A stretch of 37,494 nt of DNA from Pseudonocardiales bacterium (GTDB lineage Bacteria; Actinomycetota; Actinomycetes; Mycobacteriales; Jatrophihabitantaceae): assembly GCA_025965875.1 (NCBI GenBank), contig JAOPWD010000516.1, positions 1 through 37,494 of the forward strand, written 5' to 3'. Under the pieces are notes generated by a model. The model was not told the DNA's origin and made no database searches. It worked only from the letters and a program-made list of their open reading frames with translations. The translations under genes were made by a program, and so were the position numbers. Positions 21,160-22,586 of the stretch are shown here, piece after piece (position 1 is the stretch's first letter; each line of letters begins with the position of its first letter).

Positions 21160-21227
21160 TCCCAGTCCGCGGGACAGATGTCTCACGTGGTGGCGGGGTT
21201 GGGTAGCGAGACTGCCGCCCTGCCGAC

Positions 21228-21233
21228 TACTGT
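21228..21233 (+). promoter_or_regulatory. -10 hexamer of the Cys-leader transcript
   Basis: TACTGT lies exactly 7 nt before the ATG at 21241, the spacing expected if the first base of the leader peptide's ATG is the transcription start (leaderless). No convincing -35 was found. Confidence 0.55.
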
Positions 21234-21240
21234 CTGCCCC

Positions 21241-21336
21241 ATGAGCATCGCGCTCTTCGCAGTGAGCACTCGGCTCATCACCCGCCGCACGGTCGACCTG
21301 TGCCGTGTGGGCAGCTGCCTCTGTCGTATGCGCTGA
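21241..21336 (+). CDS. Cys-rich leader peptide upstream of the sulfurtransferase
   Basis: A 31-codon frame ending in VDLCRVGSCLCRMR, with three Cys codons near the end. It matches the actinobacterial family of short leader peptides (R-R-x-V/I-D-L-C-R-V pattern), such as mycobacterial Ms5788A upstream of the thiosulfate sulfurtransferase gene. There, ribosomes pausing at Cys codons when cysteine is scarce change the mRNA fold and relieve attenuation of the downstream gene. ATG 21241 has a -10 7 nt upstream; an in-frame GTG at 21262 would give a 24-residue peptide closer to the family length. Codons TGC CTC TGT contain CCTCT, which is complementary to AGAGG in the sulfurtransferase ribosome site. 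Confidence 0.8.
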   Translation: MSIALFAVSTRLITRRTVDLCRVGSCLCRMR

Positions 21337-21451
21337 CCGGGTAGCCCTTGGCCGCCGCCCCGCGGCGCTGTTGCTTCCCGCTTTCCCCGCCACCAAATCC
21401 GGGTGCGCTCGCACGCCATCAACCTGTGCACTATCAATAGAGGAGACGATC
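21337..21451 (+). promoter_or_regulatory. Attenuator/leader region of the sulfurtransferase mRNA
   Basis: The 115 nt between leader peptide and sulfurtransferase include a small hairpin GCCGC/GCGGC near 21352-21367 and end in the ribosome site GAGGAG (21440-21445), 6 nt before the ATG. AGAGG at 21439-21443 can pair with CCTCT at 21318-21322 inside the Cys codons, a long-range interaction that would hide the ribosome site unless a paused ribosome covers the Cys codons. The pairing is only 5 bp and untested. Confidence 0.5.
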
Positions 21452-22285
21452 ATGAGTCGCGAAGACGCGCTCGTCACGGCCGACTGGGCCGAGCAGAACC
21501 TGAACACACCGGGTGTGGTGTTCGTCGAGGTCGACGAAGACACCAGCGCCTACGACGGGGGCCACATCGAGGGCGCCGTCAAGCTCGACTGGAAGACCGA
21601 ACTGCAGGACCAGGTCCGACGCGACTTCGTCAACAAGGAGCAGTTCGAGCAGTTGGCCTCCGAGAAGGGCATCAGCAACGACGACACAGTCGTCCTGTAC
21701 GGCGGCAACAACAACTGGTTCGCCGCCTACGCCTACTGGTACTTCAAGCTCTATGGCCACGACGACGTGAAGCTGCTCGACGGCGGTCGCAAGAAGTGGG
21801 AGCTCGACGGCCGTGAGCTCTCGAAGGACACCGTGTCCCGCGAGCACACCACCTACACCGCCAAGGACCAGGACCTCTCGATCCGCGCTTTCCGCGACGA
21901 GACCATCGCCGCGATCGGGCAGAAGAACCTGATCGACGTCCGCTCGCCCGACGAGTTCTCCGGCAAGCTGCTCGCACCTGCGCACCTGCCCCAGGAGCAG
22001 TCCCAGCGCGGCGGGCACATCCCGACCGCCCTCAACGTGCCGTGGAGCAAGGCCGCCAACGAGGACGGCACGTTCAAGTCCGACAAGGACCTGCGGCAGC
22101 TGTACTCCGAGGTCGGCCTGGACGACGCCAAGGACACGATCGCGTACTGCCGCATCGGGGAGCGCTCCAGCCACACCTGGTTCGCGCTGCACGAGCTGCT
22201 CGGCCACGACAACGTCAAGAACTACGACGGTTCGTGGACCGAGTACGGCTCGCTGGTCGGCGTCCCGATCGAGAAGGGTGCCTGA
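21452..22285 (+). CDS. cysA2: Thiosulfate sulfurtransferase (tandem rhodanese, CysA2/SseA type)
   Basis: A 277-residue two-domain rhodanese that moves sulfane sulfur from thiosulfate to a thiol or cyanide acceptor. The inactive N-terminal domain contains VVFVEVDEDTSAYDGGHIEGAVKLDW and YGGNNNWFAAYAYWYFKLYGHDDVKLLDGGRKKWE (in two runs), very close to mycobacterial CysA2/CysA3. The active C-terminal domain starts LIDVRSPDEFSGK and carries the active-site loop CRIGERS with Cys233. ATG 21452 has GAGGAG upstream. It follows a Cys leader peptide, so expression is probably cysteine-responsive, and DUF1416 follows after 1 bp in the same transcript. Confidence 0.95.
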   Translation: MSREDALVTADWAEQNLNTPGVVFVEVDEDTSAYDGGHIEGAVKLDWKTELQDQVRRDFVNKEQFEQLASEKGISNDDTVVLYGGNNNWFAAYAYWYFKLYGHDDVKLLDGGRKKWELDGRELSKDTVSREHTTYTAKDQDLSIRAFRDETIAAIGQKNLIDVRSPDEFSGKLLAPAHLPQEQSQRGGHIPTALNVPWSKAANEDGTFKSDKDLRQLYSEVGLDDAKDTIAYCRIGERSSHTWFALHELLGHDNVKNYDGSWTEYGSLVGVPIEKGA

Positions 22286-22286
22286 G

Positions 22287-22586
22287 ATGTGCGGCGCCCC
22301 TGCGCAGACCCCGTCACTGCCCGCCGGTGTCGACCTCGAGAAGGAGACCGTCATCTACGGCGTCGTCTCACACGGTGACGCGCCGGTGCCCGGTGCGTAC
22401 GTGCGACTGCTCGACTCGACCGGTGAATTCACCGCCGAGGTCGTGACGTCGGCGACCGGCGACTTCCGGTTCTTCGCCGCGCCCGGCGACTGGACGCTGT
22501 CGGTGCTGCACCGCGACGGCAAGGCCACCGCGCCCGTGTCGGCGACCGGCCCCGGCCTGGTGGAAGCCTCGCTGACCCTGCATTGA
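22287..22586 (+). CDS. sseC: DUF1416 protein (SseC-like)
   Basis: A 99-residue DUF1416 protein, the usual partner gene of CysA-type sulfurtransferases in actinobacteria (mycobacterial SseC). It begins MCGAPAQ with an N-terminal Cys, then a small carboxypeptidase-regulatory-like beta domain: TVIYGVVSHGDAPVPGAYVRL, FTAEVVTSATGDFRFFAAPG and WTLSVLHRDGKA. Biochemical function is unknown; a role in handling sulfane sulfur is inferred from invariant linkage. ATG 22287 is 1 bp after the sulfurtransferase stop, so it is coupled. A large hairpin follows its stop. Confidence 0.88.
   Translation: MCGAPAQTPSLPAGVDLEKETVIYGVVSHGDAPVPGAYVRLLDSTGEFTAEVVTSATGDFRFFAAPGDWTLSVLHRDGKATAPVSATGPGLVEASLTLH

Follow-up and report, generated by a model that had tools for sequence, protein, structure and literature searches.

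We lean toward reading the short open reading frame (ORF) that begins at position 21,241 of the window (the whole stretch of 37,494 nucleotides analyzed here) as a translational attenuator that responds to cysteine, belonging to the Ms5788A leader family and carried by a Jatrophihabitans-like actinobacterium; in it, a ribosome stalled at the last Cys codon would free the SD of the downstream sulfurtransferase gene. For the sensing step this is the most likely interpretation given strong comparative evidence, and for the output step (SD unmasking) it is the most likely one given the fold predicted for the window and analogy. That the leader controls the ribosome site of the next gene in a Cys-responsive way is supported by its homology to experimentally studied Ms5788A-type leaders, together with this predicted fold. 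The assembly consists of 549 contigs; among the genomes in the collection, Jatrophihabitans-like and Pseudonocardiales MAGs are the closest relatives that bear a name. The features discussed below are presented in Table 1.

Table 1. Features of the leader region and the adjoining operon (positions within the window).
Feature	Position	Strand	Basis or remark
-10-like hexamer TACTGT	21229..21234	+	sequence; 6 nt spacer to leader ATG
Leader ORF, 31 aa, MSIALFAVSTRLITRRTVDLCRVGSCLCRMR then stop	21241-21336	+	sequence; conserved in 102/105 loci
Codons of conserved peptide core RRTVDLCR	21283..21306	+	synonymous sites vary, amino acids fixed
Cys21 codon TGC, +6 from first R of RR	21301..21303	+	Cys in 100/102 cysA2-type and 0/30 other family leaders
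Cys26 codon TGC, +11	21316..21318	+	Cys in 78/102 homologues
CCTCTGT, proposed anti-SD over last Cys codons	21318..21324	+	predicted pairing with 21437-21443, about 0.9-0.96 per bp
Cys28 codon TGT, +13	21322..21324	+	invariant Cys, rare UGU; proposed sensing codon
ATAGAGGAG, sulfurtransferase SD and bases pairing with leader	21437..21445	+	sequence, predicted fold
CysA2-type sulfurtransferase, 277 aa, two rhodanese domains	21452-22285	+	Pfam PF00581, 5.4e-36, two stretches
DUF1416 (SseC-type) gene, next in operon	22287-22586	+	Pfam PF07210, 1.5e-39

An earlier sequence-only reading of this DNA had described a Cys leader ending in LCRVGSCLCRMR with the codons TGC CTC TGT, and this ORF was borne out; these codons (C26, L27, and C28) occupy positions 21316-21324, with CCTCT at 21318-21322, and the three Cys residues of the peptide (21, 26, and 28) are non-contiguous. 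The leader is not a product of chance, as LTxRR[AT][VI]DLCRVxxCxC or a close variant of it was found at 102 of 105 homologous actinobacterial sulfurtransferase loci (those with upstream sequence). Only three related Saccharothrix species (L075, L094, and L107) lacked the motif in the 1.5 kb preceding the sulfurtransferase gene. A longer leader from the ATG at 21178 (52 aa) was ruled out, as conservation and the -10 spacing favour 21241, and so was a sulfurtransferase start at the GTG at 21305, given that the homologues begin at an ATG equivalent to 21452. The gap between the leader and this ATG is 115 nt, and the SD of the gene is AGAGGAG. Directly 5' of the leader lies a gene for an LmeA-like phospholipid-binding protein (PF11209; 20452-21159, plus strand). 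An Rfam search for known structured RNAs gave only sub-threshold chance matches, none of them credible.

The last T of TACTGT lies 7 nt 5' of A21241, which would place the transcript start at or next to this nucleotide, and a leaderless mRNA is to be expected. The predicted leaderless initiation at the window leader is well supported because a TAnnnT hexamer occurs within 15 nt upstream of the start codon in 100 of the 102 homologous leaders, nearly all at leaderless spacing. The earlier reading had placed the leader start exactly at the predicted transcription start. A consensus sigma-70 scan requiring a -35 element found no match upstream of the leader. In leaders preceding sirA (e.g., L129, L130, and L131), nACCAT or a similar hexamer, not TAnnnT, occupies the -10 place, with the leaderless spacing unchanged.

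The window leader matches the NCBIfam profile NF042933 ("Ms5788A family Cys-rich leader peptide") with E=3.6e-7 and 29.7 bits (cut-off 45), residues 8-30 aligning with positions 3-25 of the 27 in the profile, and NF042934 (cis_reg_atten, "putative leader peptide") with E=2.2e-5 and 24 bits (cut-off 27). We place the leader in the Ms5788A family as a divergent member, its homology being clear from the alignment although both scores lie under the curated cut-offs. In Mycobacterium smegmatis, leaderless ORFs with contiguous Cys codons (Canestrari et al. 2020) are described in citing papers as Cys-dependent translational attenuators (PMC9031893, PMC13236596, PMC9094748), and the SD-masking Cys-leader model is therefore not new, being in essence the published mycobacterial one. 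The window leader resembles the Ms5788A family of the same work in being a short ORF, here with a putative leaderless start, in the core LTxRR[AT]VDLCRVxxCxC (in register over 23 residues), and in its location upstream of a cysA2-type sulfurtransferase operon (in the window, PF00581 twice and then PF07210). It differs in its three Cys codons, which stand apart and form no run, in its longer N-terminal part, and in adjoining the sulfurtransferase gene directly. Leaders with a long gap directly precede a DUF4395 gene; in Mycobacterium, Nocardia, and Pseudonocardiaceae (among L036-L117, gap 459-727 nt), this membrane-protein gene, absent in the window, stands between the leader and the sulfurtransferase.

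Other described leaders share some of these features. Members of NF042934 and NF042936 (Ms4527A family) have the same 19-residue core as the window leader, but many of them are single-Cys, whereas the window leader has three Cys residues. Cys leaders were predicted before mycobacterial cys operons already in 2005 (Seliverstov, PMC1262725), likewise as short ORFs whose Cys codons lie close to the stop codon, with no clear terminator; in that work, however, Rho was suggested, and the cases came from Mycobacterium, Propionibacterium acnes, and Bifidobacterium. The uORFC-8-2 motif upstream of cysS in Rhodobacterales (PMC8632094) is also a leader ORF with Cys codons as the sensor, but its Cys codons are tandem and mostly UGC, it has an intrinsic terminator, and it belongs to another phylum.

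The strongest signals, missed by the sequence-only reading, are the conservation of the peptide itself and a fixed UGU Cys codon. Among 79 distinct core sequences, pN was 0 at D+4 (pS 1.45) and C+13 (pS 0.62), numbered from the first R of RR, and 0.01-0.06 at R+7, L-3, R0, and R+1, while the non-Cys core positions pooled gave pN/pS of 0.15. The comparison of these sequences indicates that the peptide RRx[VI]DLxR is under selection beyond its Cys codons, because the amino acids stay the same although synonymous sites change. This finding is new, and a search of the available literature for the peptide motif yielded no relevant paper.

The residue C+13 is present in all 102 cysA2-type leaders and in all 30 leaders of another set, composed of leaders at sirA loci, which were picked through the SirA protein and independently of the leader, and of other NF042934 leaders located before genes of cysE, apsK, alkanesulfonate monooxygenase, and a transporter. 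Each of these 30 carries RR[HAY][VI]D[LFH]xR with C+13, none has C+6, most contain one Cys only, and in eight of them C+13 is the last residue. The genome of the window encodes a second leader of the family, MQRRARIALTARRHVDLQRVTAAACRLST (G000:C243:26371-26424, minus strand, L121), with a single Cys at +13, located 62 nt upstream of a sirA-type (sulfite/nitrite reductase) gene. It was also observed that RRx[VI]DLxR leaders (L158-L214), many of them single-Cys and annotated only as "putative leader peptide", occur across the class in 1-10 copies per genome; the genes that follow them are cysE, apsK, and those of alkanesulfonate monooxygenase, ABC transporters, and LLM monooxygenases. At three loci (L151, L155, and L157), a leader of the family lies on the strand opposite to sirA and probably serves the neighbouring divergent gene.

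The codon for C+13 is TGT in 62/62 cysA2-type leaders devoid of a CCC run, in 29/30 of the other leaders, and in all 23 readable leaders of a later class-wide sample (loci of 55-74% G+C), found with a profile that spans the C+13 residue, though not its codon. Among the Cys codons of the sulfurtransferase genes at the same loci, TGT accounts for 0 of 101, and among those of sirA genes for 17 of 258 (7%); the background comprises these two genes only, and the related sequences counted here are not independent of one another. No other position of the motif shows so consistent a use of a rare codon, and C+6 is TGC in 57 of the same 62 leaders. The window leader obeys this rule, with TGT for Cys28 and TGC for Cys21 and Cys26, whereas leaders with CCC runs have TGC at +13 in 25 of 40 cases (Nocardia). 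The near-invariant UGU at this fixed Cys is new, as no earlier description was found, and, taken with the conserved peptide and Cys, it suggests that sensing takes place at a single codon, within a fixed context of the nascent peptide. Pairing with the SD was ruled out as the general reason for UGU at +13 by the sirA leaders, whose own pairing between the +13 codon and the SD is not above that of swapped controls.

These observations bear on a reading in which the nascent peptide assists stalling, i.e., RRx[VI]DLxR, while inside the exit tunnel, would slow the ribosome at the invariant Cys codon (UGU, +13), so that one hungry codon suffices. We give it less than an even chance of being correct; it is compatible with the attenuator proposed here, which would then cover the output step only, the output being SD unmasking or something else. 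In TnaC-type arrest peptides, conserved residues stand at a fixed distance from the stall codon, and stalling occurs on an abundant free amino acid and controls Rho. The fixed distance between peptide and codon is common to TnaC and the window leader, and selection acting on the peptide, not only on its codons, at such a distance from the presumed stall site was found here; in our case, however, scarcity is expected to switch expression on, and the arrest would have to be supposed. The peptide-assisted reading is favoured by pN near 0 combined with pS of 0.4-1.4 at L-3, R0, D+4, R+7, and C+13, by the universal C+13 in leaders most of which, outside the cysA2-type, are single-Cys, and by UGU at this site in genes that otherwise use UGC. 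Against it, CCC-bearing Nocardia leaders use UGC at +13, which implies that UGU is unneeded where Cys codons repeat, and in some cysA2 leaders UGU could be kept because it pairs with the SD, which does not hold for the sirA leaders taken together. As an extension, we tentatively suggest that actinomycete sulfur genes (cysA2, sirA, cysE, apsK, and alkanesulfonate monooxygenase) may share one design, RRx[VI]DLxR with a single Cys at +13, nearly always UGU, in which sensing would take place at that wobble-read codon, aided by the nascent chain inside the tunnel, and not at a Cys run; the polycysteine forms found in Mycobacterium and Nocardia would then be derived.

Returning to the output step of the proposed attenuator, the complementarity of CCTCT to AGAGG (21439-21443) of the sulfurtransferase ribosome site was confirmed and extends to 7 bp (CCUCUGU at 21318-21324 with AUAGAGG at 21437-21443); the two 5-nt elements had been placed 117 nt apart, but 116 nt separate them. 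In the predicted fold, bases 21318-21323 of the leader and 21438-21443 of the SD form pairs with a probability of about 0.95, and the predicted cost of opening the SD is 5.7 kcal/mol with the leader free versus 2.9 kcal/mol if the leader is covered up to its last Cys codon. A ribosome decoding UGU 21322-21324 in the A site would occlude the entire anti-SD. Taken as a whole, the leader RNA does not exceed its shuffles in stability (z=+0.29). Bare complementarity of 7 bp is not rare, since a match of equal strength to the window SD arises in 24% of synonymous recodings of the leader tail and in 2.4% of random 24-mers of the window, but the pairing in the complete predicted fold is unusual, its window level being reached by 0/100 synonymous recodings and by 12/100 shuffles of the intergenic gap. 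These predictions make SD masking by Cys codons plausible in the window.

Conservation of the pairing is a different matter. In a same-genus relative (L040), the leader keeps CCTCTGT, the SD region reads TTGAGGAG, and no pairing is predicted. Across short-gap loci, pairing of the Cys codons with the SD is predicted in only 3 of 41 (the window itself, L019, and L038), covering the leader to free the SD has a mean effect of 0.06 kcal/mol over 43 loci, and equilibrium SD masking by the Cys tract was thus not found as a conserved family feature over these 41-43 loci. The SDs of short-gap relatives mostly pair with gap sequence in the predicted folds. At the long-gap loci, where the DUF4395 gene comes next, the terminal Cys codons again match the SD region strongly, with other letters than in the window. 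In Mycobacterium, CUGUUGU is complementary to ACAACAG or GCAACAG of the SD region in 9 of 10 cases, and in Nocardia CCUGUGC is complementary to GCGCAGG or GCACAGG in 23 of 25. When leader tails and SDs were swapped over 20 clades, own pairs exceeded swapped ones at p=0.052, a result driven by these two genera, and the covariation of tail and SD sequences across clades is suggestive only. A plausible picture from these sequences is that SD masking by Cys codons is well patterned in Mycobacterium and Nocardia, while in the window's own family the pairing is not conserved. The Cys-responsive SD-masking model of the sequence-only reading is supported in part, with Ms5788A homology and the change in opening cost in the window speaking for it, but its CCTCT/AGAGG pair is not conserved among the relatives.

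It may also be that the leader is a Cys sensor whose 7-bp complementarity to the SD in the window is coincidental, the SD being masked, if at all, by gap sequences, an account that we regard as a serious, if minority, candidate. The frequency of equally strong helices among synonymous recodings, the preference of the relatives' SDs for gap sequence, and the absence of pairing in L040 agree with it, whereas the failure of every recoding to attain the predicted pairing in the whole fold and the drop of 2.8 kcal/mol in SD opening energy once the leader is covered do not.

We consider it unlikely that the output is transcription attenuation dependent on Rho or a hairpin, in which the finished leader would expose the C-rich gap (21337-21430) to Rho and a stalled ribosome would prevent this. 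Such a mechanism would accord with the proposal of Rho for mycobacterial cys leaders mentioned above, with the C-rich gap and a stem with a weak T tail at 21353-21367, and with the lack of conservation of SD masking. However, the gap is conserved neither in sequence nor in length even within the family (52-171 nt in the alignment), the mycobacterial case is described as translational, and a search for an intrinsic terminator between the leader and the gene found only stems without a T run (21351-21367). Finally, it is very improbable that the peptide acts in trans or is a mere by-product of the leaderless start, since, despite the conservation at the peptide level and the example of the leader peptide peTrpL, which acts in trans elsewhere (PMC7298713), the leader always lies just upstream of sulfur/Cys genes and selection at the codon level on one fixed Cys codon argues for a role in decoding.

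Under the translational attenuator favoured here, the mRNA would begin at the leader ATG and the leader would be translated. With too little charged tRNA-Cys, the ribosome would wait with UGU 21322-21324 in the A site, sitting on CCUCUGU, and would thereby free the sulfurtransferase SD, otherwise paired with the Cys codons, so that the gene could be translated. When cysteine is ample, the ribosome would finish and leave, and the long-range helix would mask the SD. The leaderless start, the stalling, and the control of expression by the helix are all parts of the model that we infer.

The window thus extends the known family of Cys attenuators to a Jatrophihabitans-like lineage, with the sulfurtransferase as the first controlled gene. 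The tiny gene at the start of this sulfur-metabolism message is probably a cysteine gauge, the next gene being made when cysteine is short. The comparison also raises the question of why one Cys codon, at a fixed distance after a conserved peptide, is nearly always UGU in genomes that otherwise use UGC; if sensing by a single codon with the help of the nascent peptide is true, it would represent a new way to set sensitivity in amino-acid attenuation.
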